DNA from: Vogesella indigofera
GTDB taxonomy: Bacteria; Pseudomonadota; Gammaproteobacteria; Burkholderiales; Chromobacteriaceae
Reading direction: 5' to 3'
DNA: 64,000 nucleotides
Assembly: GCF_003633895.1 (NCBI RefSeq)
Contig: NZ_RBID01000011.1
Span: 558,001-622,000, forward strand
Each line of letters opens with the position of its first letter. Within the stretch, counting starts at the first letter, position 1. Below, piece after piece: positions 401-63,769 of this stretch. A program made the translations under genes and the position numbers. The notes under the pieces are model-generated. The model was not told where the DNA came from and searched no databases. It worked only from the letters and a program-made list of their open reading frames with translations.

Positions 401-413
401 GCGGCCAACCTTG
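401..413 (+). repeat. DUS-like repeat, intergenic copy
   Basis: Exact GCGGCCAACCTTG preceded by T. It sits just outside the terminator in the gap between two convergent genes and is followed by another G (TTGG). Confidence 0.75.
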
Positions 414-438
414 GTCGCCCTGGACTGACGGTGTCGTC

Positions 439-2127
439 TCAGTGGTGCGCAGTGTGCGACTTGTCGGAGTACATCTTGCGGTCGGCGGCGCGCAGCAGCA
501 GTTCCGGCTCGTCGCCATCCTCCGGATACATTGCCACGCCGATGCTGGCGGAGACGCGATACAGCGCGCCCTCATCGCGCACCGGCCGGTCGATGGCCAT
601 CTCCACCTTGCGTGCCAGCGTCGCCAGGGTCAGCTCGTCGCTGACCTGCGGAATCAGCAGCACGAATTCGTCACCCCCGACCCGCGCCACGGTGTCGGAG
701 CGGCGCAGCAGGGCCATCAGCCGGTCGGCCACGGTTTGCAACACCTTGTCGCCGGCGGCATGACCGTAGCGGTCATTGACCTGCTTGAAGCGATCCAGAT
801 CGACGAACATCACCGCAAACTGCTGGTGCAGACGTTCCGCGCGGCGGATCTCCTGCCCCAGCCGGTCGAACAGCAGGGTGCGGTTGATGCAGCCGGTCAG
901 CGCATCGTGCGAGGCCTGATACTGGATCAGCTGTTGCGATTCCTTGGCGTCGGTGACATCCATCAGCACGCCAAACAGTAGCGGCTCGCCCTCGCGCTCC
1001 ACCACTTGCGCGCGCAGCGCCAGCCAGCCGTAGCCGCTGTCGCCGTGGCGCAGGCGCACTTCTACGGCCAGTGGCGTGCGCTGTTGCAGGCTGTGCTGCA
1101 GCGCATCGCGCCAGCGCTGGCGATCCTGCACCAGCATCCGGCGCTCCACCTCCACCAGCGGCAACAGCGGGCGCGGCTCGACGGCCAGCAGGCGGCAGGC
1201 CTCTTGCGACAGCGACACCTGTCCGTCCTGCGGTGCATAACTCCAGTGCCCCAAACGGGCCACCTGCCCCGCCAGTCGCAGCCAGCCCAGCTGTTCCTCC
1301 ATCGCCTGCTGGGTCTGCATCGCCTCGTCGGCGGCCAGCTTGCGCTCCACCACGACCGCCGTCCAGCGCGCCAGGTGCTGCACAAACTCGGTGTCGGCAC
1401 TGGAAAACGGTGCGCGCGGTGCGCCGGCGCAGAACGCCAGCGTGCCAAAGATGCGGCCCTGCACCAGCAGCGGTATGCCGATGTAGGCGCGGAAGCGGAA
1501 TTCGCGGTAACAGGCGCTGTCGGCCAGTGCTGTTTCCAGCACGTCGGGCAGGCATAGCAGCTGGCCGTTCTGCAACGTGCGTTCGCAATAGGTCAGGTCC
1601 AGCGGCAGGGACTTGCCGCGACTCAGATCATTGCCGGCGTGGCAGGCAATGATTTCCAGTTGCGTGGCCTTGCGCTGGGCGACAAAGGCGATTTCCATGC
1701 CCAGCGCCGCCGCGCCGGCGGCCAGTGCGCTGTCCAGCCGGTGCAGGCGGTCTTTCTCGCTGGAGGCAGCCAGATCGGAGAGAATTTGCAGATAGTGTTC
1801 GCGCTGACGGCGCTTCTGCTCCTGCTCGTGCCAGTCCTGCAGTGGCACCAGCCGGTAGGCGGTCAGCGTGTTTGCCTGCGGGCCGGGCAGCAGGCCGAAC
1901 AGGCGCGAGTCCAACTGGCAGGGCAGCATGTCTGCCGGCAGTGGCGCGCCCTGCCACTCGCCGGCCCGGGCAAGCGGTAGCGCCATGCCGACGCTGGCCG
2001 CCTCGCCCAGCAATTGCCCGGCCGCGGAATTGCAGGCGCGTAGCCGCTGTTGCGCATCGAGTACCAGCCAGGGCGCGGCCGCAGTGTGCAGTAGCGTCAG
2101 CAGGCCATCATCAAGCACGTTCTGCAT
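439..2127 (-). CDS. PAS-GAF-PAS-GGDEF diguanylate cyclase
   Basis: 562 residues with no membrane segment, so probably cytoplasmic. A short PAS-like region (~10-60) is followed by a charged linker, a GAF domain (~115-260), a second PAS with PAC-like tail (~285-395) and a C-terminal GGDEF domain (~400-558). The active-site signature is intact (RVGGDEFVLL), so c-di-GMP synthesis from two GTP is expected. An RRSD motif five residues before GGDEF matches the RxxD inhibitory site for product feedback. The signal sensed by the PAS/GAF domains is unknown. An 11-bp inverted repeat covers the start codon (separate entry). It is convergent with the helicase gene. Confidence 0.93.
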   Translation of the reverse strand: MQNVLDDGLLTLLHTAAAPWLVLDAQQRLRACNSAAGQLLGEAASVGMALPLARAGEWQGAPLPADMLPCQLDSRLFGLLPGPQANTLTAYRLVPLQDWHEQEQKRRQREHYLQILSDLAASSEKDRLHRLDSALAAGAAALGMEIAFVAQRKATQLEIIACHAGNDLSRGKSLPLDLTYCERTLQNGQLLCLPDVLETALADSACYREFRFRAYIGIPLLVQGRIFGTLAFCAGAPRAPFSSADTEFVQHLARWTAVVVERKLAADEAMQTQQAMEEQLGWLRLAGQVARLGHWSYAPQDGQVSLSQEACRLLAVEPRPLLPLVEVERRMLVQDRQRWRDALQHSLQQRTPLAVEVRLRHGDSGYGWLALRAQVVEREGEPLLFGVLMDVTDAKESQQLIQYQASHDALTGCINRTLLFDRLGQEIRRAERLHQQFAVMFVDLDRFKQVNDRYGHAAGDKVLQTVADRLMALLRRSDTVARVGGDEFVLLIPQVSDELTLATLARKVEMAIDRPVRDEGALYRVSASIGVAMYPEDGDEPELLLRAADRKMYSDKSHTAHH

Positions 2128-2168
2128 ATCCGTAACCCGAGAAAAAGTTTTGGCATATTACGGATATG
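2125..2168 (-). promoter_or_regulatory. Inverted repeat covering the diguanylate cyclase start codon
   Basis: CATATCCGTAA (2125-2135) and TTACGGATATG (2158-2168) are perfect 11-bp inverted arms 22 bp apart. On the minus strand the second arm of the transcript contains the ATG itself and the purine-rich bases before it. Either an operator or an mRNA hairpin hiding the start is possible; which one cannot be told from sequence. Confidence 0.5.
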
Positions 2169-2188
2169 TCATAGTGATAACAAGATTT

Positions 2189-2680: not shown

Positions 2681-3605
2681 AGCCCAGTCTTTCCAGTGTC
2701 ACGGCGGTGCCGTGACCATCCAGTAGCCGCAAACCCGGCTCGGTCACGATGCGGCCAACCTTGGTCACCGTCACGCCGGCCTGGCGTGCCGCAGCCTCGA
2801 CCTCGGCGGCCCGTGCCGGGCTGGCGGTGAAGCACAGCTCGTAGTCGTCACCACCGGCGGCAATGCAGGACAGCAGCTGTGCGCGGGCGCCGTGCAGGGC
2901 CGGATGGGTCGGCAAGGCGTCCAGCCAGACCTCGGCGCCGCAGGCGGAGCGATCGAGAATATGGTGCAGGTCGGCGGCAAAGCCGTCGGAAACATCCAGT
3001 GCCGCATGGGCGATGCCGAGCAAGGCCCGGCCCAGCGCCACCCGTGGCTGCGGCCATTCCAGCTGCCGGCGGCATTCGGGTGGCAGATCCAGGCTCAGGC
3101 GGCCGAGGCGCTGTTGCAGTGCGGCGGCCGCCAGTCCCAGTTCGCCGGACACCCAGATGTCGTCGCCAGCCTGTGCTGCATCGCGGCGCAGCGCCTGGCC
3201 TTGCGGCGTTTCGCCGAAGATGGTCACCGACAGCGTCAGCGGGCCGCGGGTGGTGTCGCCGCCGATGATACTGACGCCGTGCTCTGCGGCCAGCCCGAAA
3301 AAGCCGCGCGCGAAGGCTTCCACCCAGGCACCGTCCAGCTGCGGCAGTGCCAGCGCCAGCACCGCCCAGCGCGGCGTGGCGCCCATCGCCGCCATGTCGG
3401 ACAGGTTGACCGCCAGCGTCTTGTGGCCCAGCGCCTCGGGATCGACATCGGGGAAGAAGTGACGCCCGGCCACCAACATGTCCACCGACACGTGCAGGTC
3501 GTGGCCGGGGCTGGGGCGCACGATGGCGGCATCGTCGCCGACGCCGAGCACGGCATCCGGCGCGGCCTGGGTGAAGTGACGGCGGATCAGTTCGAATTCA
3601 TTCAT
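2664..3605 (-). CDS. thiL: Thiamine-monophosphate kinase
   Basis: 313 residues. ThiL phosphorylates thiamine monophosphate with ATP to give thiamine pyrophosphate. Family motifs are present in order: GVGDDAAIV near the N-terminus, IIGGDTTRGP (~115) for Mg-ATP binding, and DVSDGFAAD (~205). It follows nusB after a 56-bp gap that includes a small GC hairpin (CACCCGCC.../GGCGGGTG), and overlaps pgpA by 17 bp. A copy of the dispersed 13-bp repeat encodes the K-V-G-R stretch near the C-terminus (2751-2763). Confidence 0.96.
   Translation of the reverse strand: MNEFELIRRHFTQAAPDAVLGVGDDAAIVRPSPGHDLHVSVDMLVAGRHFFPDVDPEALGHKTLAVNLSDMAAMGATPRWAVLALALPQLDGAWVEAFARGFFGLAAEHGVSIIGGDTTRGPLTLSVTIFGETPQGQALRRDAAQAGDDIWVSGELGLAAAALQQRLGRLSLDLPPECRRQLEWPQPRVALGRALLGIAHAALDVSDGFAADLHHILDRSACGAEVWLDALPTHPALHGARAQLLSCIAAGGDDYELCFTASPARAAEVEAAARQAGVTVTKVGRIVTEPGLRLLDGHGTAVTLERLGYDHFA
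2751..2763 (+). repeat. DUS-like repeat inside thiL
   Basis: Exact GCGGCCAACCTTG preceded by T; read on the coding (minus) strand as AAG GTT GGC CGC, residues K-V-G-R. Confidence 0.7.
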
Positions 3606-4658: not shown

Positions 4659-5774
4659 TTAATCCAAATCGACGTGCACGTGTTCAGGTTGGACAAAGCC
4701 GGTGACCTCCAGCCCGAAACCGGTCATCGACGGCAGGTTGATCGGCGAGGCCATCAGCTTCATCTTGCCCACGCCCAGCGCGCGCAGCATCTGCGCGCCG
4801 ATACCGAAGGTCTTGCTGTCCCAGCGCTGGCGGACGGTGCTCTCCGCCTGTTCCGGCAGTGCGCGCGCCAGGATGTCGGCGCCGGATTCCGGACGGTGCA
4901 GCAGGATCACCACGCCGCAGCCCTTTTCCGCGATTTCTTCCAGCGCGTTGGGGATGGTCCAGCTGTGCTGGCCGCCCATCGGGTCGAGCAGGTCCATCAC
5001 CGACAGCGGCTCGTGCACGCGCACCAGCGTTTCCCGGTCGGCGTGCGGTTGGCCGCAAACCAGCGCCAGGTGCGTTGCCTTGGTCAGCACGTCCTGGAAC
5101 ACGTGCAGCTGGAAGGCGCCGAACGGCGTTTCCGCCAGCCGCTGGCCGACTTCCTCGACAAAGCACTCGGTACGGCTGCGGTAGTGGATCAGGTCGGCGA
5201 TGGTGCCGACCTTGAGGCCGTGTTCCTTGGCGAATTCGAGCAGTTCCGGCAGACGCGCCATGGTGCCGTCGTCGTTCATGATCTCGCAGATCACCGACGC
5301 CGGTTCCAGTCCGGCCAGTCGTGACAGGTCGCAGCCGGCTTCGGTATGGCCGGCGCGCACCAGCACGCCGCCCTTTTGTGCCTTCAGCGGGAATACGTGG
5401 CCGGGCTGCACGATGTCGGTCGGCCGCGCATCGCGCGCCACCGCTACCAGTGTGGTGTGGGCGCGGTCGGCGGCGGAAATGCCGGTGGTGACGCCCTCGG
5501 CGGCCTCAATCGACACGGTGAAATTGGTGCCGAAACTGGTGCCGTTGTTGGTCGCCATCATCGGCAGGTTCAGCTGCTTGCAGCGCTCTTCGGTCAGCGT
5601 CAGGCAGATCAGGCCACGGCCGAACTTGGCCATGAAGTTGATCGCCTCCGGCGTCACGTGCTCGGCGGCCATCACCAGGTCGCCTTCGTTCTCGCGGTCT
5701 TCGGCGTCCATCAGGACCACCATCTTGCCGGCCTTGATGTCGGCGATAATTTCTTGAACCGGGGAAATGCTCAT
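4659..5774 (-). CDS. ribB: 3,4-dihydroxy-2-butanone-4-phosphate synthase fused to a degenerate GTP cyclohydrolase II domain (RibBX type)
   Basis: 371 residues from ATG 5774, preceded by GGGAG; an upstream in-frame ATG at 5828 adds 18 residues of no family likeness. The N-terminal half is intact RibB ([27 protein letters not shown]), which makes dihydroxybutanone phosphate from ribulose 5-phosphate. The C-terminal half aligns with RibA by order ([39 protein letters not shown]), but the three zinc-binding cysteines of the CxxxxxxxxxxCxC segment are absent and the RQEGRGIGL arginine loop is changed. This matches the described proteobacterial RibBX variant, so the second domain is probably not a cyclohydrolase. 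A separate RibA elsewhere is expected. Confidence 0.9.
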
Positions 5775-5869
5775 GCTGTGTTCTCCCGCACGCCCTGCGT
5801 GCCAGACTTGCTGCGTAACTGCATTCATGCGCGGGCGGTGTGCGTCCGCGCGCCTGTAATCTGTTTATT

Positions 5870-5887
5870 GCGGCCAACGTTGGCCGC
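5870..5887. repeat. Palindromic DUS-like repeat between ribE and ribBX
   Basis: GCGGCCAACGTTGGCCGC, an 18-bp perfect palindrome formed by two overlapping head-to-head copies of the G variant. It sits in the 119-bp intercistronic gap of the riboflavin operon, where RNA could fold it into a short stem, but there is no T-run. Confidence 0.7.
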
Positions 5888-5893
5888 AGCGCG

Positions 5894-6502: not shown

Positions 6503-6587
6503 GGTTTTGCCTTCATTTCAGGACAAACGATCATCGATTGTACCGCGTTGCAGCGCAAAATCCGACCTCGCTGCCAGCAAGGTTGGC

Positions 6588-6600
6588 CGCAGCGGCGTAT
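6588..6600 (-). repeat. DUS-like repeat in the ribE-prfC divergent gap
   Basis: Exact GCGGCCAACCTTG on the minus strand, preceded by T. It lies upstream of both divergent genes, 73 bp before the prfC start. Confidence 0.75.
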
Positions 6601-8283: not shown

Positions 8284-9161
8284 TGACGGGGGATGCACTG
8301 ATGCCCGCCTGGCTCGTCTCGCTGTTCCACAGCTACGGTTCGGACTTCTTCCGCTCCGCGGTGCTGGTCGTGGTGCTGCTGCTGGTTTACGGCAGCATCG
8401 TACGCACCATTGCGGCCAACCCGCGTGTGCCGGTGGATACCCGCCGCCGCTGGATGATCAACATCCGCAACGCGCTGATCATCATCGGGCTGGCCGGCTT
8501 CGTCACCATCTGGGCACGCGAGCTGCAGACCATCGCGCTGTCGATGGTGGCGTTCACCGCGGCGCTGGTGGTGGCCACCAAGGAGCTGCTGATGTGCCTC
8601 GGCGGCGGGCTGGTGCGTTCGATGTCGGGCAGCTACGAGCTGGGCGACATCATCGAGATCGGCACCATCCGCGGCCGGGTGATGGACATCACGATGCTCA
8701 GCACCACCATCATCGAGATCGGCCCGCGCCATGATGCACACCAGGCCACTGGCCGCTCGCTGAACTTCCCCAACAGCCTGCTGCTGACGCAGGCGGTGGC
8801 GCGCGAGAACTTCACCGGCGACTACGTGATGCACATCATCACCATCCCGCTGCCGTACAGCGTGCGTCCGGCCAGGGCGGAACGCCTGTTGCAGGAGATC
8901 GCCAACGAGGCCTGCGCGCCGCATCTGGAAGGCGCCCGCCGCCATATGGCGATGCTGGAAAGCAAGCTGCTGATGGATACGCCGTCGGTGGAGCCGCGCA
9001 TTTCGCTGCAGCCGGCCAGCGAGAAGGAATACCGCCTGATCGCCCGCATCGCGCTGCCGCCGCGTGAACGACAGCGCATCGAGCAGGCGATCCTGCACCG
9101 CTTCATGTTCGAGTGTTTCCCGGAAACAGAACCGCACCCGGCGGCGCCCGCCGCGGACTGA
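8283..9161 (+). CDS. MscS-family mechanosensitive ion channel
   Basis: 292 residues if the overlapping TGATG start at 8283 is used; ATG 8301 behind GGGGG is an equally good start. Three hydrophobic segments lie at about 15-40, 60-80 and 85-105, followed by the MscS beta-domain (SGSYELGDIIEIG...GRVMDITMLSTTII) and a soluble alpha/beta tail. Family members open under membrane tension to release solutes. The Gly-rich pore helix is short and reads GGGLVRSMSG, so gating properties cannot be inferred. It lies between prfC and the TetR gene, both almost abutting. Confidence 0.88.
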   Translation: MTGDALMPAWLVSLFHSYGSDFFRSAVLVVVLLLVYGSIVRTIAANPRVPVDTRRRWMINIRNALIIIGLAGFVTIWARELQTIALSMVAFTAALVVATKELLMCLGGGLVRSMSGSYELGDIIEIGTIRGRVMDITMLSTTIIEIGPRHDAHQATGRSLNFPNSLLLTQAVARENFTGDYVMHIITIPLPYSVRPARAERLLQEIANEACAPHLEGARRHMAMLESKLLMDTPSVEPRISLQPASEKEYRLIARIALPPRERQRIEQAILHRFMFECFPETEPHPAAPAAD

Positions 9162-9830: not shown

Positions 9831-9880
9831 AAAACAATGCGGCCAACCTTGTGCAAGGTTGGCCGCATTGTTTTTTGATG
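9831..9880. terminator. Terminator built from an inverted pair of the dispersed repeat
   Basis: A 21-bp perfect stem (9831-9851 with 9854-9874) encloses two exact 13-mers in opposite orientation: GCGGCCAACCTTG at 9839-9851 and its complement at 9854-9866. It begins with AAAACAAT and is followed by a T-run to 9876. It lies between the convergent TetR and LacI-type genes, so it can terminate both. Confidence 0.85.
9839..9866. repeat. Inverted pair of DUS-like repeats
   Basis: Two exact copies head to head with only TG between them; both are preceded by T on their own strand (AATGCGG). The arrangement is identical to that at 51615-51642. Confidence 0.85.
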
Positions 9881-11032: not shown

Positions 11033-13537
11033 ATGACCACCCAGATTATCCGCAACGAGCTGATCCAGCTTGGCGCCACCGTTAGCGAAAAAACCATTGC
11101 AATCAAGGCAGCAGGCGAATTGCTGGCCAAGGCCGGCCGTATCGCCCCCGCCTACATCGACAGCCTGCTGCGCCGCGAAACCGTTGCCAATACTTTTCTG
11201 GGTCATGGCGTCGCCATTCCTCACGGCATGATCGAAGACCGCCACCTGATCAACGAAACCGGCATCGCCATCCTGCAGGTGCCGGAGGGCGTGGAGTGGA
11301 ATCCGGGCCAGCGCGTGCACCTGGTGATCGCCATCGCCGCGCAATCCGACGAGCACATCGCGCTGCTGCGCCGGCTGACCCGCCTGCTGCAGGACGAGGC
11401 GCGCCTTGCCGAGCTGTTCACCACCGCCGACCCGTACGCACTGATCAGCGCGCTGGACGACAGCGCGGTGGCACCGGCCGCGCCGCAAACCGCCGCCAGC
11501 GACCTGAGCCTGAGCCTCAGCTGGCAGATGAACTATCCCAACGGCCTGCACGCGCGGCCGGCGCGGCTGTGGACCGAACAGGCGCGCCGCTTTGCCGCCA
11601 CGCTGCAGATCCGTAACGGCAACGAAGTGGCCGACGCCAAGAACCTGATCGGCCTGCTGCAGATCGGCGCCGAATTCGGCCACCAGCTGCATTTCTCCGC
11701 CGACGGCCCCGACGCCGCTGCGGCACTGGACGCGCTGCTGGCGGTCGCCAACCAGCTCACCGCGCAGGAAGTGGCCGACGCCGAAGCCGCGCGCAAGGCC
11801 GCCGCCAACGCCAAGCGCCAGCACTGGCAGGCGCCGGGCAAGATCCTGGCGCTGCGCGGCATCAGCGCCAGCCCAGGACTGGTGATCGGCCAGGCGCGGG
11901 TGATGAAGTCGCAGACGATCCAGGTGCCGGACATCCCGGCCACGCTGGGCTACGACGGCGACCTGTTGGAAAACGCGCTGCAGGCCACCCGCGAACAGCT
12001 GCAAACGTTGGCCGCGGATACCACCCGCCGCCTCGGCAAGACCGAGGGCAGCATTTTCCTGGCGCAGGCCGAACTGCTGTCCGACACCGACCTGATCACC
12101 CTCACCTGCCAGCTGATGGTGGAAGGCCACGGCGTGGCGTGGGCGTGGCACGAGGCGGTGCAACGCCTCGCCGACCGTCTGGCGGCGCTGGGCAACCCGC
12201 TACTGGCCGCCCGCGCCACCGATTTGCGTGACGTTGGCCGCCGCGTGCTGGCCCGGCTGGCACCGGACCTCCAGTTGCAGGATGGCGCCAAGACCCAGGG
12301 CCACAACGAAATCCTGATCGCCAACGATCTGGCCCCGTCCGACACCGCGACGCTGAATCCGCAGCAGACGCTGGCACTGGTCACCGCTCAGGGCGGCCCG
12401 ACCTCGCACACCGCCATCCTGGCGCGCACGCTGGATCTGCCGGCGGTGGTCGCCGCCGGTGCCGCGGTGCTGGACATCCAGGACGGCGCCACGCTGATCG
12501 TCGATGGCGACAGCGGCACCATCTATCTCAACGCCAGCGACGAGGACCTCGCCAGCGCGCAGCAGTGGCAGCAGGCGCAGCGCGACAAGCAGCAGCAGGC
12601 CGCCAGCGCCGCGCAGCAGCCGGCCGTCACCGCCGACGGCGCGCGCCAGATCGAGGTCGCGGCCAACGTCAACCGTCCGGAGCAGGTTGCCGCCGCGCTG
12701 CAGGCCGGGGCCGAGGGCGTCGGCCTGATGCGTACCGAATTCCTGTTCCTGGAGCGCGACGACGCGCCGGACGAGGAAGAACAGTACCAGACCTATCGCG
12801 GCATGCTCACGGCACTGGACGGCAAGCCGCTGGTGATCCGCACGCTGGACATCGGTGGCGACAAGCAGGTGCCTTACCTCAATCTGCCGCACGAGGAAAA
12901 CCCGTTCCTCGGCGTGCGCGGTGTGCGCCTGCTGTTGCGCCGTCCGGACCTGCTGCTGCCGCAACTGCGTGCGCTGTATCGCGCCGCCAGCCACGGCCCG
13001 CTGTCCATCATGTTCCCGATGGTCAGCACCCTGGCCGAGGTCAAGGCGCTGCGCGCGCAGTGCGAACAGGTGCGCGTGGCACTGAATGCGCCGGTGGTGC
13101 CGCTGGGCATCATGGTGGAAGTGCCGGCCGCCGCCACCATGGCCGACCGCCTCGCCGAGCATGTCGATTTCTTCTCGGTCGGCACCAACGACCTGACGCA
13201 GTACGTGCTGGCCATCGACCGCCAGCATCCGGAGCTGGCGGCGGAAGCCGACAGCCTGCACCCTGCGGTGTTGCGCCTGATCGCGCAGACCGTGGCCGGC
13301 GCCGATGCCCACGGCCGCTGGGTCGGCGTCTGCGGCGGCATGGCCGGCGATCCGTTGGGCGCGGCGATCCTCACCGGCCTCGGCGTGGCCGAGCTGTCGA
13401 TGAGCCCGCGCGACATTCCCGGCGCCAAGGCCAGCATCCGTGCGGCCAACCTTGCCGAGCTGCAGCAGCTGGCGCAGCGTGCCCTCAATTGCGACAGCGC
13501 CGCCGAAGTGCGCGCGCTGACCGGAGCCACAGCATGA
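11033..13537 (+). CDS. fruB: Fructose PTS multiphosphoryl transfer protein (EIIA-HPr-enzyme I)
   Basis: 834 residues combining the whole soluble phosphorelay for fructose. The EIIA-Fru domain (1-~145) has its phospho-His at 64 (GVAIPHG). The HPr/FPr domain (~160-245) has His173 (NGLHARPA). Enzyme I (~268-830) has His459 (GGPTSHTAILAR), the PEP-binding part GVGLMRTEFLFL and the C-terminal FSVGTNDLTQY. It therefore takes phosphate from PEP and hands it to FruA without separate PtsI/PtsH. Two copies of the dispersed repeat are inside the gene. Its stop overlaps the fruK start (ATGA). Confidence 0.95.
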   Translation: MTTQIIRNELIQLGATVSEKTIAIKAAGELLAKAGRIAPAYIDSLLRRETVANTFLGHGVAIPHGMIEDRHLINETGIAILQVPEGVEWNPGQRVHLVIAIAAQSDEHIALLRRLTRLLQDEARLAELFTTADPYALISALDDSAVAPAAPQTAASDLSLSLSWQMNYPNGLHARPARLWTEQARRFAATLQIRNGNEVADAKNLIGLLQIGAEFGHQLHFSADGPDAAAALDALLAVANQLTAQEVADAEAARKAAANAKRQHWQAPGKILALRGISASPGLVIGQARVMKSQTIQVPDIPATLGYDGDLLENALQATREQLQTLAADTTRRLGKTEGSIFLAQAELLSDTDLITLTCQLMVEGHGVAWAWHEAVQRLADRLAALGNPLLAARATDLRDVGRRVLARLAPDLQLQDGAKTQGHNEILIANDLAPSDTATLNPQQTLALVTAQGGPTSHTAILARTLDLPAVVAAGAAVLDIQDGATLIVDGDSGTIYLNASDEDLASAQQWQQAQRDKQQQAASAAQQPAVTADGARQIEVAANVNRPEQVAAALQAGAEGVGLMRTEFLFLERDDAPDEEEQYQTYRGMLTALDGKPLVIRTLDIGGDKQVPYLNLPHEENPFLGVRGVRLLLRRPDLLLPQLRALYRAASHGPLSIMFPMVSTLAEVKALRAQCEQVRVALNAPVVPLGIMVEVPAAATMADRLAEHVDFFSVGTNDLTQYVLAIDRQHPELAAEADSLHPAVLRLIAQTVAGADAHGRWVGVCGGMAGDPLGAAILTGLGVAELSMSPRDIPGAKASIRAANLAELQQLAQRALNCDSAAEVRALTGATA
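12004..12015 (-). repeat. DUS-like repeat (G variant) in fruB
   Basis: GCGGCCAACGTT on the minus strand; the coding strand reads ACG TTG GCC GCG, residues T-L-A-A. It is the only 12-bp match not preceded by T. Confidence 0.5.
13442..13454 (+). repeat. DUS-like repeat in fruB
   Basis: Exact GCGGCCAACCTTG preceded by T, read GCG GCC AAC CTT, residues A-A-N-L close to the enzyme I C-terminus. Confidence 0.7.
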
Positions 13538-24316: not shown

Positions 24317-24430
24317 ATGTCACCGATGGCCGCGCTCCCTGAGTGGCGTCAGAGCAGACCGCGACGAGTGCCGGATGCTCGGCCGGACGGCGCTGCTGTA
24401 TACGGCTGCATTGGTCGCATGCCATGACTT

Positions 24431-24448
24431 GCGGCCAACGTTGGCCGC
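24431..24448. repeat. Palindromic DUS-like repeat downstream of the first KfrA-like gene
   Basis: GCGGCCAACGTTGGCCGC in the gap between convergent trpC and the KfrA-like gene, 4 bp beyond the latter's stop. It is flanked by T and A on the plus strand and has no T-run, so it is not an obvious terminator. Confidence 0.7.
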
Positions 24449-47844: not shown

Positions 47845-48710
47845 GCGGCCACTGCCCGTTGCCGCTGGCGGTCGATGCCCTGCCGGCCAGCCGCCGCCTG
47901 CCGGTGCTGCGGCTGGCCGGCGCGGCGGCCAAGCTTGCCGAGGACCAGCTGATCGAGGAAGTGCCGGTGGCGATGGTGTACAACGGCGTATCGCACGCGG
48001 TGCTGCTGGCCACACCCTGTGATCTGGCCGACTTCGCGCTCGGCTTTTCGCTGAGCGAGCACATCCTACACGCCCCCGGCGAGCTGTACGACTGCGAGAT
48101 CGTCGCCGGCGAGTACGGCGTCGAGCTGCGGCTGGAGATCGCCAGCGCCCGCTTTGCCGCGCTGAAGCAACGCCGGCGCAGCATGGCCGGCCGTACCGGC
48201 TGCGGCCTGTGCGGCGTCGACAGCCTGGACGCGGTGGCGCAGACCATCGCGCCGCTGCCGTTGCGGCCAACCTTGCATGCCGCCGCGGTCGCCCGCGCGG
48301 TGGCGGAGCTGCCGCACTGGCAGCCGTGGCACCACGCCACCGGCGCCGCCCACGGTGCCGCCTTCTGCAATGCCGACGGCGACATCCTGCTGGCGCGCGA
48401 GGACGTTGGCCGCCACAACGCGCTGGACAAGCTGATCGGCGCGCTGCGCCGCCAGCGGATCGATACCGGCGACGGCTTTGTGCTGGTTTCCAGTCGCGCC
48501 AGCTACGAGATGGTGCAAAAGACCGCCAGCGCCGGCATCGCCGCGCTGGTAGCGGTATCGGCGCCAACCGCCTACGCCGTGACGCTGGCCGAATCCTGCG
48601 GCCTGCTGCTGGCCGGCTTTGCCCGCCCCGGGCGGCTGGTGGCCTACAGCCAGCTGCCGCGCCTGATCTGCCCCGAATTGACGAGACCCCACCATGACCC
48701 AGTTTGTTGA
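47841..48710 (+). CDS. fdhD: Formate dehydrogenase sulfurtransferase FdhD
   Basis: 289 residues from ATG 47841, overlapping the fdnI stop; the open frame extends upstream to 47481 but lies inside fdnI. FdhD carries sulfur from IscS to the molybdenum cofactor for FdnG. The conserved cysteine pair is in GRTGCGLCGVDS, and AREDVGRHNALDKLIG is also diagnostic. A repeat copy encodes R-P-T-L. It overlaps fdhE by 17 bp. Confidence 0.95.
   Translation: MSGHCPLPLAVDALPASRRLPVLRLAGAAAKLAEDQLIEEVPVAMVYNGVSHAVLLATPCDLADFALGFSLSEHILHAPGELYDCEIVAGEYGVELRLEIASARFAALKQRRRSMAGRTGCGLCGVDSLDAVAQTIAPLPLRPTLHAAAVARAVAELPHWQPWHHATGAAHGAAFCNADGDILLAREDVGRHNALDKLIGALRRQRIDTGDGFVLVSSRASYEMVQKTASAGIAALVAVSAPTAYAVTLAESCGLLLAGFARPGRLVAYSQLPRLICPELTRPHHDPVC
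48263..48275 (+). repeat. DUS-like repeat in fdhD
   Basis: Exact GCGGCCAACCTTG preceded by T, read CGG CCA ACC TTG, residues R-P-T-L, a different frame from the copies in fruB and fruA. Confidence 0.7.
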
Positions 48711-51610: not shown

Positions 51611-51646
51611 CATTGCGGCCAACCTTGTGCAAGGTTGGCCGCAATG
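51611..51646. terminator. Terminator built from a second inverted pair of the dispersed repeat
   Basis: A 17-bp perfect stem (51611-51627 with 51630-51646) with TG between the arms. On the minus strand it is followed by TTTTGCC, so it most likely ends mobA transcription and may also serve the carbonic anhydrase gene from the other side. Confidence 0.7.
51615..51642. repeat. Inverted pair of DUS-like repeats
   Basis: Exact GCGGCCAACCTTG at 51615-51627 and its complement at 51630-51642, each preceded by TT on its own strand. The 28-bp core is identical to that at 9839-9866 although the flanks differ. Confidence 0.85.
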
Positions 51647-52973: not shown

Positions 52974-53464
52974 GCAGAATCCTTCAGCCAGTTGGCAATA
53001 AAATCGGCAATCGCGGCGTGGTCGTCCAGCGGCAATTGCGGCAAATCGGTCGCGGCTGCGCAGTCGCTGGCCAGCGCGATCACGAACGGGTCGTCCGGGT
53101 ACAGCCACGGCTTGGCGCAGGCGCTACGGTGCACCTCGATGCGCGGCACCGGCAGCGTTTTCTGGCCCTCCAGCAGCACCAGGTCGACTGCGGCCAACCT
53201 TGACAGCTGCTGCTCCAGCGTCAGCGGCTGCGGCGTCTCGACAAACAGGCCGAAGCGGTAGGGCGACACCACCATCACCTCGTGCGCGCCACTGGCGCGG
53301 TGGCGCTGGCTGTCCTTGCCGGCCACGTCCAGTTCGATGTCGTGGTGACTGTGCTTGATCACCGACACCGTCAGTCCGCGCGCGGCCAGTAGCGGCAACA
53401 GCGCGCCGATCAGCGTGGTTTTGCCACTGCCGGACCAGCCGGCAATGCCCAGCACTTTTTGCAT
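52970..53464 (-). CDS. mobB: Molybdopterin-guanine dinucleotide biosynthesis adapter protein MobB
   Basis: 164 residues, GTP-binding P-loop protein with Walker [11 protein letters not shown], then [12 protein letters not shown] and the PRIEVHR motif. MobB binds MobA and improves guanylylation. It opens the minus-strand unit and is divergent from moaC. A repeat copy encodes R-L-A-A in its middle. Confidence 0.94.
53190..53202 (+). repeat. DUS-like repeat in mobB
   Basis: Exact GCGGCCAACCTTG preceded by T; the coding strand reads AGG TTG GCC GCA, residues R-L-A-A. Confidence 0.7.
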
Positions 53465-56706: not shown

Positions 56707-57462
56707 ATGAGTGAATTGCTGCACCCCTTCGCCGGCAAGGGCACCGGCCAGCGCATCGCGCTGCTGCGCGCCATCCGCGAGCACGGTTCGATCAGCGCCG
56801 CCGCGCGCCAGTGCCAGCTCAGCTACAAGGCGGCGTGGCAGCACATCGACAACATCAACAACCTCAGTCCGCAACCGCTGGTGGCACGGCTGACCGGCGG
56901 CAAGGGCGGCGGCGGCACACGGCTGACCGCGCTGGGCGAACAGCTGCTGGACGCGTGGGAGAAAACCGGCGTCGCGCTGCAGGCCGGATCCATGCAGGAG
57001 CGGCAGACGCTGGCGCTGCTGGGCCGGCTGGCGGTGCGCACCTCGGCGCGCAACCAGCTGGCTGGCGAAATCAGCCACATCCAGCGCGGTGCGGTCAACG
57101 ACACCATCACCCTGCGCCTGCCCGGCGGCAGCCAGCTGCAGGCACAGATCACCCGCGAAAGCTGCGACGAGCTGGCGCTGCACGAAGGCGGCCACGCCAT
57201 CGCGCTGATCAAGGCGTCGTGGATCACCCTGGCGCTGCCGCAGGCGGCGGCGCAGGTCGCCATCGCCAACCGCCTGCCGGGCAAGGTTGGCCGCATCACC
57301 GCCGGCCTAGTCAACAGCGAGGTGATCGTCACCCTGCCCGGCGGCTACAGCCTGTGCGCGATGGTGGACAACGACAGCCTGGCCAGCCTCGCCATCGCGG
57401 TGGACGACGCAGTGTGCGCACTCTTCTCGTCCCAGAGCGTGATCCTGGGCATTCTCGACTGA
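56707..57462 (+). CDS. modE: Molybdate-responsive transcriptional regulator ModE
   Basis: 251 residues from ATG 56707; the upstream frame from 56635 is not family-like. The N-terminal LysR-like winged helix (IREHGSISAAARQCQLSYKAAW, HIDNINN) binds DNA. Two Mop/TOBE halves (~120-185 and ~190-250) bind molybdate, each with the SARNQLxG-like and ITRESCDELALHEG motifs. It represses molybdate uptake when the oxyanion is plentiful. It heads the mod operon. A repeat copy encodes K-V-G-R at the start of the second Mop half. Confidence 0.95.
   Translation: MSELLHPFAGKGTGQRIALLRAIREHGSISAAARQCQLSYKAAWQHIDNINNLSPQPLVARLTGGKGGGGTRLTALGEQLLDAWEKTGVALQAGSMQERQTLALLGRLAVRTSARNQLAGEISHIQRGAVNDTITLRLPGGSQLQAQITRESCDELALHEGGHAIALIKASWITLALPQAAAQVAIANRLPGKVGRITAGLVNSEVIVTLPGGYSLCAMVDNDSLASLAIAVDDAVCALFSSQSVILGILD
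57282..57294 (-). repeat. DUS-like repeat in modE
   Basis: Exact GCGGCCAACCTTG on the minus strand, preceded by T; the coding strand reads AAG GTT GGC CGC, residues K-V-G-R, the same peptide as in thiL. Confidence 0.7.
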
Positions 57463-57473: not shown

Positions 57474-58220
57474 ATGAAACCTACCCTGCTGTGCAGTCTG
57501 CTGGCGCTGTGCGTCGCCTCTTTCGCCAACGCCGCGCCGGTACAGGTGGCGGTTGCGGCCAACGTGCAGTATGCGTTTGCCGACATCGCCGCCAGCTTCA
57601 GCCGCGATACCGGCATCGCGGTGCAACCGTCGTTCGCCTCCTCCGGCAAGTTCGCCACCCAGATCATGAACGGCGCGCCGTTCGAGCTGTTCCTGTCCGC
57701 CGACAACGAGTTCCCGCAAAAGCTGGCGCAGGCCGGCTTTACGCTGCAGACGCCAAAAAGCTACGCGCTGGGCGCGCTGGTGCTGTGGTCGAAAGACCCG
57801 CAATTCAAGCCACAACAGTGGCAGCAGTGGCTGGCGGCCAGCCGCGGCAAGATCGCCATCGCCAATCCGCGCACCGCGCCCTACGGCAGCGAGGCGCTGC
57901 GGGTGCTGGACTACTACCGGCTGAGCGCTAGCGTCACGCCGCGGCTGGTCAGCGGCGACAACATCGCGCAGGCGGCGCAGTTCGTCGACAGCGGTGCGGC
58001 CCAGGCCGGCTTTGTCGCCAAGGCGTTGGTGCTGGCGCCGCAGATGAAGGACGTGGGTCGCTGGGTCGACATCCCCGCCGCCAGCCACCAGCCCATCGTG
58101 CAGGACATGGTGCTGCTGAAGCCGGCGGCGGCCAATCCGGACGCCCGCAAGCTGTTCGACTACCTGTCCGGCCCGGCCGCGCGGCAGATCCTGCAACGCT
58201 ACGGCTACCGCCTGCCATGA
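57474..58220 (+). CDS. modA: Molybdate ABC transporter periplasmic binding protein
   Basis: 248 residues from ATG 57474, 11 bp after the modE stop. Sec signal peptide (MKPTLLCSLLALCVASFANA-A). ModA family text: VAVAANVQYAFADIAASF, PSFASSGKFATQI, LFLSADNEFPQKL and IANPRTAPYGSEAL. It binds molybdate and delivers it to ModB. A near-match of the dispersed repeat (GCGGCCAACGT) encodes A-A-N-V. It overlaps the next gene by 4 bp. Confidence 0.95.
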   Translation: MKPTLLCSLLALCVASFANAAPVQVAVAANVQYAFADIAASFSRDTGIAVQPSFASSGKFATQIMNGAPFELFLSADNEFPQKLAQAGFTLQTPKSYALGALVLWSKDPQFKPQQWQQWLAASRGKIAIANPRTAPYGSEALRVLDYYRLSASVTPRLVSGDNIAQAAQFVDSGAAQAGFVAKALVLAPQMKDVGRWVDIPAASHQPIVQDMVLLKPAAANPDARKLFDYLSGPAARQILQRYGYRLP

Positions 58221-58615
58221 ACCGGCTGCCGGCCACCATCCACGCGCGGCACAGCGCCGACGGCCTGCACCTGCTGGAGCTGACGCTGTGCGGCCAACCT
58301 TGCACCGCGTTTGCCAGTGCCGCGCTGCCGCCGTGGCAGGCCGGGCAAACGGTGGAGGTGCTGTTCCGCGAGCTGGACGTGGCGCTGTCCACCGCGGCCT
58401 GCCCGACGCTGAGCATCCGCAACAGCCTGCCGTGCCGCATCGTGGCCATCCGCCACGGCGCGCTGTTCAGCGATGTCACGCTGCACAGTGCCGGCGCCAC
58501 ACTGCACGCGGTGATTACCCGCCGCTCCTGCGACTCGCTGGCGCTGCATGAGGGCATGGCGGTGTACGCGCTGATCAAGTCCAATGCGCTGCAACTGCTG
58601 GAGCCGGCACCATGA
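58217..58615 (+). CDS. Stand-alone TOBE/Mop protein resembling the C-terminal domain of ModC
   Basis: 132 residues, no signal peptide. From ~45 to the end it matches, by motif order, the C-terminal TOBE part of E. coli ModC: VEVLFRELDVALS, SIRNSLPCRIVAI, and ITRRSCDSLALHEGMAVYALIK. Such domains bind molybdate. It is wedged between modA and modB with 4-bp overlaps at both ends, and the ModC here is shorter than usual (284 versus ~350 residues). The ModC regulatory domain thus seems to be encoded separately. An independent molbindin role is the alternative. Confidence 0.8.
   Translation: MNRLPATIHARHSADGLHLLELTLCGQPCTAFASAALPPWQAGQTVEVLFRELDVALSTAACPTLSIRNSLPCRIVAIRHGALFSDVTLHSAGATLHAVITRRSCDSLALHEGMAVYALIKSNALQLLEPAP
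58290..58302 (+). repeat. DUS-like repeat in the TOBE/Mop gene
   Basis: Exact GCGGCCAACCTTG preceded by T, read TGC GGC CAA CCT TGC, residues C-G-Q-P-C: the third plus-strand frame seen for this repeat. Confidence 0.7.
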
Positions 58616-59286: not shown

Positions 59287-60137
59287 TCGAATTTTCGCTG
59301 CAAAAAACCCGCCACGGTGCCAACGGCCAGTTGCAGCTGGATGTCGCCGCCACGCTGGCCGCCGGCAGTTTTACCGTGCTCAGCGGCGCGTCCGGCGCCG
59401 GCAAGACCACGCTGCTGCGGCTGCTGGCCGGGCTGGAAGCGGCAGACAGCGGCTGGCTGCAGGTGAACGGCGCCGACTGGCTGCGCGGCGGCCACAGCCT
59501 GCCCGTGCAGCAGCGCCGCATCGGCATGGTGTTCCAGGATTACGCGCTGTTCCCGCACCTCAGCGTGGCCGACAACATCGCCTTTGGCGCCGCGCGCGGC
59601 GAGCGCGCCCTGGTGCAGGAGCTGCTGGAACTGTGCGGGCTGGCGGCGCTGGCGCGGCAGTACCCGGCGCAGTTGTCCGGCGGCCAGAAGCAGCGCGTGG
59701 CACTGGCGCGGGCGCTGGCGATGCGGCCAACCTTGCTGTTGCTGGACGAGCCGCTGTCGGCGCTGGATCACGGCCTGCGCCGCGAGCTGCAGCGGATGTT
59801 GCGTGACATGCACCAGCGCTTTGCGCTGACCACGGTGATGGTCAGCCACGATCTGGGCGAGATCTTCGCGGTGGCCGACCAGGTGCTGCAGCTGGAGCAC
59901 GGCCGCATCAGCGCGCAGGGCACGCCGGCGCAGGTGTTTCTGCAGACGCCGCGTGACAGCAGCCGCATCGCGCTGCACGGCGAGGTACTGGCCTGCCAGC
60001 CGGCCGACGTGATGTGGCGGGTGACGGTGCTGGTCGCCGGCGAGCTGGTGGAAGTACTGCTCAGCGCACAGGACGCCGCCACGCTGAGCGCGGGGCAACG
60101 CATCCGGCTGTCGGCCGGCGCGCTGCAACCGGGCTAG
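59283..60137 (+). CDS. modC: Molybdate ABC transporter ATP-binding protein
   Basis: 284 residues. Walker A GASGAGKTT, signature LSGGQKQRVALARAL, Walker B LLLLDEPLSALD and the switch His in VMVSHDLGEIF. After the ATPase (~225) only a ~60-residue TOBE-like tail remains (RIALHGEVLACQPADVMWRV). ModC of E. coli has about 350 residues with a longer regulatory domain. A repeat copy encodes R-P-T-L just before Walker B. No terminator was found in the 114 bp before sbp. Confidence 0.94.
   Translation: MIEFSLQKTRHGANGQLQLDVAATLAAGSFTVLSGASGAGKTTLLRLLAGLEAADSGWLQVNGADWLRGGHSLPVQQRRIGMVFQDYALFPHLSVADNIAFGAARGERALVQELLELCGLAALARQYPAQLSGGQKQRVALARALAMRPTLLLLDEPLSALDHGLRRELQRMLRDMHQRFALTTVMVSHDLGEIFAVADQVLQLEHGRISAQGTPAQVFLQTPRDSSRIALHGEVLACQPADVMWRVTVLVAGELVEVLLSAQDAATLSAGQRIRLSAGALQPG
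59723..59735 (+). repeat. DUS-like repeat in modC
   Basis: Exact GCGGCCAACCTTG preceded by T, read CGG CCA ACC TTG, residues R-P-T-L immediately before the Walker B strand. Confidence 0.7.
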
Positions 60138-61250: not shown

Positions 61251-61725
61251 GCCTGCTGCCACGCTGAGCACGCTGCTGGTGCTGGCCGACGCCCACGAGG
61301 CGGATGGCCACACCCTGCTGCGGCTCGGGCACCAGCAGAACGCGCTGTTGCTGGCGCGCGCAGCCGAGCTGGACGAGTGGCTGCACAGCCACGGCAAAAG
61401 CGTACTGCTGCTGGCCGCCGGCGAGCTGTGCCTGCCGGCGCTGGCGGTGCTGGCGCGCCATCCACAGCGCGCCCTCGGCGCCCTGCTGCTGTCCCCCAGC
61501 GGCGATCTGGCCGCCGCCGTGCCGCTGCCCTTCCCCAGCCTCACCGTCTGCCACCCGCCGCAGCCTCACTGGCCGCGGCTGACCAGCACCGTCGCCTTTG
61601 CCAGCCGCTGGGGCAGCCGACTGCACACCCTGCGTGGCGAAGGCGATGCCGCGCTCGGCGAATTGCGTCTGCTGCTGCAACAGCTGCGCCAGCAGGTGGA
61701 AGGTTGGCCGCAAGGCAACCTGTAG
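61216..61725 (+). CDS. RBBP9/YdeN-like alpha/beta hydrolase lacking the catalytic triad
   Basis: 169 residues if ATG 61216 (35 bp inside sbp) is used; TTG 61240 is another start. The layout follows RBBP9/YdeN hydrolases: a central helix ([20 protein letters not shown]), [38 protein letters not shown] and a C-terminal EGWPQG. The GHSLG-type nucleophile elbow reads LLAAGELCL, the acid position is Gln or Pro, and the GHIN histidine is lost (EGDAAL). It looks like a pseudo-enzyme co-expressed with sulfate uptake. Function unknown; the family call is by motif order only. Confidence 0.6.
61700..61711 (-). repeat. DUS-like repeat at the end of the RBBP9-like gene
   Basis: GCGGCCAACCTT on the minus strand, preceded by TT; the coding strand reads GGT TGG CCG CAA, residues G-W-P-Q, coinciding with the family's terminal motif. 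Confidence 0.5.
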
Positions 61726-61940: not shown

Positions 61941-62016
61941 CCGCCGGCAATATCCTGTTTGCAGTTATATAAAAACAGGATGCCGCGATGCCTACTACCC
62001 ATGACGGAGGTGCACC

Positions 62017-62856
62017 ATGACCAAAGCGCCGACCCTACCCCGCGTGTTACCCGGCTTCGGCCTGTCGCTGGGCTTCACCCTGACCTATCTGTCGCTGGTG
62101 GTGCTGATTCCGCTGGCGGCGGTGTTCATCCGCGCCAGCAGCCTGAGCCTGGAAGCGTTCTGGGACGCGGTGACCGCACCGCGGGTGCTGGCTTCCTACC
62201 AGCTCAGTTTCGGCATGGCGCTGCTGGCCGCCGCCATCAATACCGTGTTCGGCCTGCTGCTGGCTTGGTCGCTGGTGCGTTACCGCTTTCCCGGCAAGAA
62301 GCTGGTCGACGCGCTGGTGGACCTGCCATTTGCGCTGCCCACCGCGGTGGCCGGCATCGCGCTGACCGCGCTGTACGCCGGCAACGGCTGGCTGGGGCAA
62401 TACCTGGAGCCGCTGGGCATCAAGGTGGCGTTCGGCCCGCTGGGCGTGCTGGTGGCACTGGTATTCATCGGTCTGCCCTTCGTGGTACGCACGGTGCAGC
62501 CGGTGCTGGAAGACCTGGAAACCGAGCTGGAAGAAGCCGCCACCAGCCTTGGCGCGCATCGCTGGCAGACCTTCCGCCACGTGATCCTGCCGGTGCTGCA
62601 GCCGGCGCTGATGACCGGCTTCGCGCTGGCGTTTGCCCGTGCCGTCGGCGAGTACGGCTCGGTGATCTTCATCGCCGGCAATATCCCGATGGTGTCGGAA
62701 ATCACCCCGCTGATGATCATCAGCAAGCTGGAGCAGTACGACTACGCCGGCGCCACCGCCATTGCCAGCGTGATGCTGGTGGCGTCGTTCCTGTTGCTGC
62801 TGGCGATTAACGGTTTGCAGGCGTGGCAGGCACGCCGTAACGGGAGAAGCGAATAA
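62017..62856 (+). CDS. cysT: Sulfate ABC transporter permease CysT (CysU)
   Basis: 279 residues with GGAGG before the ATG. Six hydrophobic segments and the EAA loop ETELEEAATSLGAHRWQTF. Typical text: LVDALVDLPFALPTAVAGIAL, ARAVGEYGSVIFIAGNIP. It forms the sulfate channel with CysW. The stop overlaps the cysW start by one base (TAATG). Confidence 0.96.
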   Translation: MTKAPTLPRVLPGFGLSLGFTLTYLSLVVLIPLAAVFIRASSLSLEAFWDAVTAPRVLASYQLSFGMALLAAAINTVFGLLLAWSLVRYRFPGKKLVDALVDLPFALPTAVAGIALTALYAGNGWLGQYLEPLGIKVAFGPLGVLVALVFIGLPFVVRTVQPVLEDLETELEEAATSLGAHRWQTFRHVILPVLQPALMTGFALAFARAVGEYGSVIFIAGNIPMVSEITPLMIISKLEQYDYAGATAIASVMLVASFLLLLAINGLQAWQARRNGRSE

Positions 62857-63737
62857 TGGCCGCCATTACTGCCAATCTGTATGCCCAGCACGACCGCGCC
62901 GCGCTGCTGGAAAGCCGTCAGGCCACGCGCGAGGCGCGCTGGGTGAAGTACACCATCCTCGGCGTGGCGCTGACTTTCTTCGCCATCTTCCTGCTGCTAC
63001 CGCTGGCGGTGGTGTTTGCCGAGGCGCTGGCCAAGGGCTGGCACACCTATCTCGATGCGCTGGTGGAGCCGGACGCATTGTCGGCGGTGAAACTGACCCT
63101 GCTGGCGGCCGTGATCTCGGTGCCGCTGAACCTGGTGTTCGGCGTGGCGGCGGCGTGGGCGATCACCCGCTTCGATTTTCGCGGCAAGCAGCTGCTGATC
63201 ACGCTGATCGACCTGCCGTTTTCGGTGTCGCCGGTGGTGGCCGGCCTGATCTACGTGCTGGTCTTCAGCAGCCACGGCTGGATCGGCCCCTGGCTGCTGG
63301 AGCACGACATCAAGGTGATCTTCGCGGTGCCGGGCATCGTGCTGGCCACCGTGTTCGTCACCGTGCCCTTCGTGGCGCGCGAGCTGATTCCGCTGTTGCA
63401 GGCACAGGGCCGCGAGGAAGAAGAAGCCGCGGTGGTGCTGGGCGCACGCGGCTGGCAGGTGTTCTGGCACGTGACGCTACCCAATGTGCGCTGGGCGCTG
63501 CTGTACGGCGTGATCCTCAGCAATGCGCGAGCGATGGGCGAATTCGGCGCGGTGTCGGTGGTGTCCGGCCATATCCGCGGCGAAACCAACACCCTGCCGC
63601 TGCACGTGGAGATTCTCTACAACGAGTACCAGTTCGCCGCCGCCTTCGCCGTGGCCTCCCTGCTGGCGCTGCTGGCGCTGGTGACGCTGGCGGTGAAGAG
63701 CTGGATCGAATGGCGCGCCGCGCAGGCGCATGACTGA
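62856..63737 (+). CDS. cysW: Sulfate ABC transporter permease CysW
   Basis: 293 residues, six hydrophobic segments. EAA loop [19 protein letters not shown] and the typical [20 protein letters not shown]. The N-terminal ~35 residues are a charged cytoplasmic extension. Partner of CysT in sulfate uptake; followed by cysA after 77 bp. Confidence 0.96.
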
Positions 63738-63756
63738 TCGCGACAGGCTGGCCGTT

Positions 63757-63769
63757 GCGGCCAACCTTG
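63757..63769 (+). repeat. DUS-like repeat between cysW and cysA
   Basis: Exact GCGGCCAACCTTG preceded by TT. A small hairpin GGCCGCG-CATGA-CGCGGCC follows at 63784-63802, just before the cysA ribosome site. Confidence 0.75.

Follow-up and report, generated by a model that had tools for sequence, protein, structure and literature searches.

A dispersed repeat of Vogesella indigofera that acts like a DNA uptake sequence, with dialects among the Chromobacteriaceae and a ComP-like pilin in its carriers

A 64,000-nucleotide stretch of the Vogesella indigofera genome (assembly GCF_003633895.1, contig NZ_RBID01000011.1, positions 558,001 to 622,000; hereafter the window) carries many copies of a short repeat, the 14-mer TGCGGCCAACCTTG, on both strands. 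Judging from its genomic habits we have high confidence that this word acts like a DNA uptake sequence (DUS), and it very probably serves as one, that is, as a password for self-DNA in natural transformation, with an orthologue of the type IV minor pilin ComP as the likely receptor. The best reading would be a ComP-dependent family of DUS-like dialects, in a group where a survey published in 2013 saw no obvious DUS. Two families of self-DNA uptake words, the DUS of Neisseriaceae and the uptake signal sequence (USS) of Pasteurellaceae, are treated as established (PMC12616744). A literature search on Vogesella, Chromobacteriaceae, Pseudogulbenkiania, Chromobacterium uptake, GCGGCCAAC and the 10-mers, which covered titles and the beginnings of abstracts with subscription papers and supplements outside it, gave no report of the word among the matches listed.

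An earlier note on the window, made from its letters, had counted 16 exact copies, each with T in front; all 16 are present, and TGCGGCCAACCTTG has zero copies in each of 100 dinucleotide shuffles of the window. The positions it gave hold for all but two sites, a minus-strand copy placed at 6588 that really occupies 6578-6591 and a single G-variant site placed at 47194 that is really at 47195. Its three additional 12-bp matches are borne out by a total of 19 copies matching GCGGCCAACCTT, and its G variant in three palindromes and five single sites by 11 matches to GCGGCCAACGTT, the palindromes being counted twice. The 10-mer core TGCGGCCAAC occurs 41 times in the window compared to 0.85 expected under an order-4 Markov model. 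On the basis of k-mer statistics, the natural unit is TGCGGCCAAC followed by a softer tail, (C/G)T(T)(G).

When 400 kb from elsewhere on the same contig are added to the window (464 kb in all), TGCGGCCAAC is observed 236 times against 5.4 expected under the same model, while its one-mismatch forms stand at background (130 observed, 127.9 expected). One-base changes inside the GCGGCCAAC part of the 12-mer total 12, and the first tail position tolerates C or G in this strain (121 TGCGGCCAACCT, 71 TGCGGCCAACGT). Flanking information extends about 3 bases on the upstream side and 4 on the downstream side of an 8-base core, CGGCCAAC, before it reaches background. A contrast with Kingella oralis (one-mismatch words +21%) was dropped, being a raw count; the raw ratio here, 130 to 236, equals background. 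The whole genome (3,618,773 bases, 20 contigs) contains 709 copies of the word in its 13-mer form, 344 forward and 365 reverse, and 1,244 copies of KCGGCCAACCT, 622 per strand, with a backward control of 0 in each case; the earlier note had predicted hundreds to thousands of copies, roughly even between the strands. Core density in sampled DNA of this genome is approximately 1 per 2 kb. The 14-mer was also found in at least 120 stretches of a viral collection, which is large enough for chance matches and thus uninformative.

Positions relative to genes rest on crude gene calls, made without a standard gene finder, which give 79% coding in the 400 kb and are too low in regions of low GC content. 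By these calls the 195 cores in the 400 kb comprise 110 coding, 83 intergenic and 2 edge sites, and the exact copies outside called genes number 7 of 16 in the window and 38 of 56 in the 400 kb, roughly the half that the earlier note had taken to be intergenic. Coding sites use all six frames, Ala-Ala-Asn being the commonest reading. Inverted pairs with a gap of at most 20 bases occur 28 times in the 464 kb, 4 within called genes and 24 outside them; the latter lie between convergent (14) or co-directed (10) neighbours and never between divergent ones (no orientation null was computed), in agreement with the earlier note, which took inverted pairs to make terminators. Unpaired copies outnumber paired ones.

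The sites are also conserved between species. In four Vogesella relatives (92-95% identity), 26 of 29, 22 of 27, 18 of 21 and 21 of 23 window coding sites are kept. Control 10-mers from the vicinity, matched in GC and codon phase, are retained at rates of 0.59, 0.63, 0.52 and 0.51 (binomial P = 3e-4, 0.03, 0.0015 and 6e-5, the four relatives not being independent). Non-coding window sites are kept in 10 of 12, 11 of 12, 9 of 10 and 7 of 8 cases, figures that have no control, and 17 of 18 site losses in these relatives are due to a single substitution. A more distant genome, G059, keeps 3 of 9 aligned window sites. The window sites are listed below; exact copies were located by pattern match, cores by 10-mer search with alignment to relatives, and pairs by inverted-pair analysis.

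400..413, plus strand: exact TGCGGCCAACCTTG, kept in 4/4 aligned relatives
2750..2763, plus strand: exact TGCGGCCAACCTTG, kept in 4/4 aligned relatives
5048..5057, minus strand: core TGCGGCCAAC (core search, relatives alignment)
5869..5888, unstranded: 20-bp palindrome TGCGGCCAACGTTGGCCGCA, two head-to-head cores (core search, pair analysis)
6578..6591, minus strand: exact TGCGGCCAACCTTG (exact match)
8411..8420, plus strand: core TGCGGCCAAC (core search, relatives alignment)
9838..9851, plus strand: exact TGCGGCCAACCTTG, left arm of inverted pair (exact match, pair analysis)
9854..9867, minus strand: exact TGCGGCCAACCTTG, right arm; pair between convergent called genes, followed by a T-rich stretch
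13441..13454, plus strand: exact TGCGGCCAACCTTG (exact match)
15203..15212, plus strand: core TGCGGCCAAC (core search, relatives alignment)
18409..18418, plus strand: core TGCGGCCAAC (core search, relatives alignment)
19275..19284, minus strand: core TGCGGCCAAC (core search, relatives alignment)
20588..20607, unstranded: 20-bp palindrome, two cores, within a called coding sequence (core search, pair analysis)
23242..23251, plus strand: core TGCGGCCAAC (core search, relatives alignment)
24430..24449, unstranded: 20-bp palindrome, two cores, flanked by convergent called genes (core search, pair analysis)
26019..26028, minus strand: core TGCGGCCAAC (core search, relatives alignment)
28342..28355, minus strand: exact TGCGGCCAACCTTG (exact match)
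29727..29736, plus strand: core TGCGGCCAAC (relatives alignment), kept too in G059
32397..32406, plus strand: core TGCGGCCAAC (relatives alignment)
33168..33177, minus strand: core TGCGGCCAAC (relatives alignment)
33723..33732, minus strand: core TGCGGCCAAC (relatives alignment), kept too in G059
34360..34369, plus strand: core TGCGGCCAAC (relatives alignment)
36385..36394, plus strand: core TGCGGCCAAC (relatives alignment), kept too in G059
37906..37919, minus strand: exact TGCGGCCAACCTTG (exact match)
38726..38735, plus strand: core TGCGGCCAAC (relatives alignment)
41406..41415, plus strand: core TGCGGCCAAC (relatives alignment)
43008..43017, plus strand: core TGCGGCCAAC (relatives alignment)
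47198..47207, minus strand: core TGCGGCCAAC (relatives alignment)
48262..48275, plus strand: exact TGCGGCCAACCTTG (exact match)
51614..51627, plus strand: exact TGCGGCCAACCTTG, left arm of inverted pair (exact match, pair analysis)
51630..51643, minus strand: exact TGCGGCCAACCTTG, right arm; pair flanked by convergent called genes
53189..53202, plus strand: exact TGCGGCCAACCTTG (exact match)
57282..57295, minus strand: exact TGCGGCCAACCTTG (exact match)
57554..57563, plus strand: core TGCGGCCAAC (relatives alignment)
58289..58302, plus strand: exact TGCGGCCAACCTTG (exact match)
59722..59735, plus strand: exact TGCGGCCAACCTTG (exact match)
61703..61712, minus strand: core TGCGGCCAAC (relatives alignment)
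63756..63769, plus strand: exact TGCGGCCAACCTTG (exact match)

Beyond this genome, the word proves to be one of several dialects, which the earlier note had missed. Our family set comprises 61 genomes in coded GTDB genera, among them g1 (Vogesella, 13 genomes including that of the window), g2 (the Aquitalea genus, ten) and g3 (the Chromobacterium genus, 19); g1 includes Vogesella aquatica (G050), V. oryzae (G054), V. urethralis (G060), Beta proteobacterium L13 (G055) and two metagenome-assembled genomes (MAGs), G057 and G058. These names come from identical tmRNA neighbourhoods in named records, 16S being unsuitable with no match in 33 of the 61 genomes; the tmRNA region of the window's genome itself comes closest to V. 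alkaliphila (93.6% over 1,960 bases) and V. margarita (98.0% over 457). All 13 g1 genomes hold 207-709 copies of the 13-mer and the other 48 genomes 0-6. In samples of 60-100 kb per genus, sister words built on the same core CGGCCAAC were found, with TG in front in Vogesella, CT in g5 and TT in g6, g7, g9 and g10, while no sister word was found in g2, g3, g4 or g8. Counted over whole genomes, YTCGGCCAACC reaches 126-1,068 copies in ten (G010, G034-G038, G045-G048) and 4-21 in the other 51, so that 23 of the 61 are enriched carriers; nine of ten g2 and all 19 g3 genomes are not enriched. The two bases in front of CGGCCAAC were tallied in nine carriers (G036, G047 and most other g1 genomes lie outside the tally): TG at 236 sites in the window's genome and 112 in G059, CT at 43 of 52 sites in G034 and at 5 of the 8 in G035 (Crenobacter luteus), and TT, which predominates in G037, G038, G045 and G048 and stands at 5 of 7 sites in G046 (Pseudogulbenkiania ferrooxidans 2002). 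The YTCGGCCAACC matches listed for G010 all have TT. Written in the Neisserial orientation, the Vogesella word is AGGTTGGCCGCA, that of Pseudogulbenkiania, Gulbenkiania and others AGGTTGGCCGAA, and that of g5 (Crenobacter luteus and one further genome) AGGTTGGCCGAG. Vogesella itself falls into two groups, G000, G049 and G051-G053 with 642-709 exact 13-mers and the other eight with 207-300; KCGGCCAACCT numbers at least 948 in all six g1 genomes tested, and the tail beyond CCT seems to be less fixed in the low-count group.

YKCGGCCAACC was also counted in a set of 35 named genomes. Strong enrichment (566-1,589) is seen in 15, namely six Vogesella species, Beta proteobacterium L13, two MAGs, Gulbenkiania mobilis, Crenobacter luteus, Neisseriaceae bacterium JH1-16, an Aquitalea MAG, Pseudogulbenkiania subflava and P. 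ferrooxidans 2002 (689, backward control 11), the last of which is the same strain as Lutiella nitroferrum 2002. Weaker counts occur in Crenobacter oryzisoli (328) and one Pseudogulbenkiania MAG (149). The remaining 18 hold 11-64 copies and include seven Chromobacterium records (six species names), three Aquitalea species, Crenobacter caeni and C. intestini, two Craterilacuibacter and another Pseudogulbenkiania MAG. Genomes named Pseudogulbenkiania range through 689, 566, 149 and 29, and carriage may vary in this genus or a MAG may be misnamed or incomplete. In Crenobacter caeni and C. intestini (G030, G031), with 64 and 54 copies against 13 and 16 backward and no clear ComP found, the word is possibly a fading relic. 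Across a sample of 399 genomes of the order, 386 of other families reach at most 37 KCGGCCAACCT and eight carriers 427-1,244, although this search used KCGGCCAACCT alone, to which families using another word are invisible. One g3 genome and one g2 genome, sampled over 260 kb each, showed no alternative word; by eye, the top repeats of the sampled g3 genome resemble a CRISPR array.

A candidate receptor, also overlooked by the earlier note, is a 142-amino-acid type IV pilin encoded on contig 11 of the window's genome. Pfam family PF16732 (ComP_DUS) was rejected as a marker of carriers since other pilins match it too and it therefore hits all 61 genomes; we instead built a profile of the globular domain (A2) from seven carrier homologues aligned without the N-terminal helix, and its scores accordingly lean towards carriers. 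Against PDB the profile places the ComP entries 2nba, 2m3k and 5hz7 on top (E = 7e-20, 2e-18 and 1e-17), the next match being another pilin at 4e-8, and its matches score at least 75 bits in each of the 23 carriers. As single domains, the proteins of V. urethralis G060 (3e-7) and of G025 of the Chromobacterium genus (1e-6) also have ComP as their best PDB match. ComEA is present in all 61 family genomes (59 over the cut-off) and ComEC in 59, the two without a match being the carrier MAGs G057 and G058, and together they make an uptake path plausible.

From these data we infer binding of the word, DNA uptake through it, a receptor role for ComP and descent shared with the Neisseriaceae DUS. In the proposed scheme, ComP on the pilus would bind the word on extracellular double-stranded DNA, retraction of the pilus would pull the word-bearing DNA across the outer membrane, ComEA and ComEC would finish uptake, and recombination would then spread and preserve the word.

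A number of observations weigh against a ComP-dependent uptake sequence related to the DUS. A2 also finds a ComP match in 34 of 38 genomes that lack the word (9 g2, 19 g3, 6 g8), and ComP is therefore not sufficient; the scores are 120-128 bits in all nine of these g2 genomes, 64-106 in all 19 of g3 and a weak 51-83 in all six of g8 (where the G039 match has an in-frame TGA), while none of the four g4 genomes has an A2 match above 22 bits. Second pilins of g2 score 71-77 bits and one also has ComP as its top, if weak, PDB match (8e-4). Weak scores alone are thus no proof of orthology, and low-scoring proteins were therefore inspected for motifs: WPxLP and RNTD are kept in all 13 g1 proteins, including eight low-scoring ones, and WPxLP in the six g3 proteins inspected, whereas of four g8 genomes (G040, G041, G043, G044) only G044 has it. 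Neisserial ComP is described as having two essential disulfides, beta1-DD and beta4-beta5 (PMC12061091). Among the seven aligned ComPs here just two cysteines are invariant and the beta1 position is not cysteine, so one of these bonds seems to be absent. ComEC and ComEA were discarded as markers, being near-universal and thus not separating carriers from non-carriers. As for the word itself, its likeness to DUS is weak in the Vogesella (8/12, P = 0.077) and g5 (8/12, P = 0.061) forms, shuffled words come as close to DUS as the core 10-mers do (P 0.16-0.58), and the likeness of the Vogesella 10-mer to the Haemophilus USS is about as good (7 bases, P = 0.062). All three dialects have CCG where the published ones all have CTG.

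Comparison of the pilins among genomes leaves several further details. Carrier and non-carrier ComPs differ, for example, in K and T of the alpha-beta loop and in D and G of an N-T-D-x-G stretch; as this covers 24 of 30 sequences, with non-carriers from two genera (and carrier G045 lacking the stretch), the differences may be pure descent. Net charge does not separate carrier from non-carrier ComPs, and support in the ComP tree is too weak to place G010, the Aquitalea MAG that is the sole g2 carrier. The comP gene of G010 holds one copy of its own word, AGGTTGGCCGAA.

Whether the word shares its origin with the DUS is a separate matter. According to Frye et al. 2013, all eight DUS dialects have CTG at +6 to +8 and A at +10 (PMC3630211). 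In that orientation our words read AG-GTTGGCCGAA, AG-GTTGGCCGCA and AG-GTTGGCCGAG, the AG coming from the soft tail, and relative to the DUS core the C (+6) and the G (+8) are unchanged, with C in place of T at +7. The earlier note had stated that CTG is lacking and that the word does not resemble DUS; it missed a likeness on the other strand. There the reversed TT word AGGTTGGCCGAA (likewise TTCGGCCAACCT) agrees in register with AG-mucDUS (AGGTCGTCTGAA) and AG-simDUS (AGGCTGCCTGAA; both as given in PMC7371117) at 9 of 12 positions, with a shuffle P of 0.010 from 4,000 trials that ran over seven dialects, offsets and strands; this P carries no correction for the number of words tried. This likeness is suggestive only; it would fit a drifted DUS but does not prove descent. 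Since the words fail the published CTG definition, we file the words as a new ComP-associated dialect family outside the described DUS dialects. The resemblance to DUS otherwise extends to a length of approximately 10-12 bp, hundreds to thousands of copies on both strands, inverted pairs at gene ends, dialects a few bases apart around a core, a ComP-like pilin in every carrier and, in the TT dialect, a similar AG...GAA frame. The differences are CCG at +6 to +8, occurrence in a different GTDB family, a density of about 1 core per 2 kb in sampled DNA of the window's genome, and a ComP with two invariant cysteines in the alignment.

We put at about even chances the proposal that ComP-DUS predates the split of Neisseriaceae and Chromobacteriaceae, that it was lost or fell silent in Chromobacterium, most Aquitalea and Crenobacter caeni and C. 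intestini, and that the word drifted from CTG to CCG together with ComP. If true, the family would offer a natural series of receptor-word pairs (with GAA, GCA and GAG endings) together with related non-carriers. The competing proposal, possible though rather doubtful in our view, is an uptake sequence of independent origin from DUS, with ComP or a neighbouring minor pilin recruited convergently to a new word; it differs in origin, and perhaps in receptor, only. It draws on the CCG, on the shuffle-level similarity of the core 10-mers to DUS, on the nearly equal likeness of the Vogesella 10-mer to USS, on the genera of the family that bear ComP without the word, and on a pilin gene with weak likeness to GspH (short of the Pfam cut-off, the window strain's own copy being the one tested) that lies directly upstream of comP in five high-count g1 genomes. 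The receptor family shared with Neisseriaceae and the in-register match of TTCGGCCAACCT argue against it. The GspH-like pilin of the window strain is shorter than in four relatives, lacking a stretch next to a QLLVSVP-like repeat.

Comparison with the USS gives a similar picture of shared habits and dialect logic, and the Vogesella word has TGCGG and CA in common with the Haemophilus USS, but the CT and TT dialects are not USS-like. The USS inner core is GCGGT (PMC12616744), which is lacking from CGGCCAAC. The proposed USS receptor is ComN/PpdA, for which no search was made here.

Three explanations that do without uptake fare worse. A chromosome-maintenance site (Chi-like, KOPS-like or bound by a nucleoid protein) is improbable: such sites are likewise short, genome-wide and conserved, and the sharp specificity seen in the one-mismatch forms would suit one. 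However, Chi and KOPS are oriented with replication and strand-biased, whereas the word is split evenly between leading (173) and lagging (175) strands in samples of the window's genome and G059 classed by the sign of GC skew, with none of the confinement to one replichore that the earlier note named as evidence against an uptake signal; moreover, nine of ten g2 genomes and all 19 of g3 are not enriched, at least three dialects exist within one family, and inverted pairs sit at gene ends. A mobile palindromic repeat (REP or MITE) or merely a favoured terminator is more improbable still. It would account for the intergenic enrichment and the many inverted pairs, but 110 of 195 cores lie in called genes, which is unlike the intergenic palindromes of REP/RAYT systems (no RAYT search was made), and they use all six frames, single copies outnumber paired ones, the flanks drop to background within a few bases, and coding copies are conserved. 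Codon or composition bias, as might be suspected from the frequent in-frame Ala-Ala-Asn and the GC-rich genome, is hardly credible given 236 copies against 5.4 expected, a backward control of 0, the use of six frames and intergenic DNA, and the genus-specific spelling. The abundance, evenness between strands, lack of replichore bias, pairing and cross-species conservation thus favour the earlier note's interpretation of an uptake signal, as far as genomic behaviour can indicate.

The 2013 survey names five genomes of the group, including Lutiella nitroferrum 2002, as having no obvious DUS, and has the system arise only after the split from C. violaceum, for which its BLAST search gave no ComP (PMC3630211). 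In contrast, P. ferrooxidans 2002 is rich in the word and the ComP profile has a match in all 19 genomes of the Chromobacterium genus. Table S1D of the survey (over-represented 10-mers; PMC3630211) may list the word. Our results suggest that DNA uptake guarded by a password may have an earlier origin and a greater variety than has been assumed. If confirmed, either the origin of the system moves back or the same pilin was used in two origins, the "invariant" CTG core is not invariant, and there are organisms outside Neisseria in which joint change of pilin and word can be studied.

For a DUS, scarcity in horizontally acquired DNA would be expected. Two low-GC regions of contig 1 are poor in sites. 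They and their borders were picked after site density had been seen, and their P values are therefore no fair test. The first, at 42-88 kb, has 5 sites compared to 26.4 expected, and the second, at 370-392.5 kb, has 0 compared to 12.9. The second region, the only one of the two in which transposition genes were verified, contains genes for TniQ and for a transposase of the Mu/rve type beside a 2,563-codon frame and further large open frames, a DDE transposase lying just beyond its border, and looks like a Tn7-like element with cargo. Genes in the first encode a KAP NTPase, a YqaJ-type recombinase and a large protein with autotransporter-type repeats; the region adjoins the tmRNA gene and may be an island at ssrA. 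In its middle part this tmRNA (contig 1:88046-88410) is, by eye, nearer to that of G017 of the Chromobacterium genus than to that of G056 of its own genus, which suggests that the tmRNA body has been exchanged.

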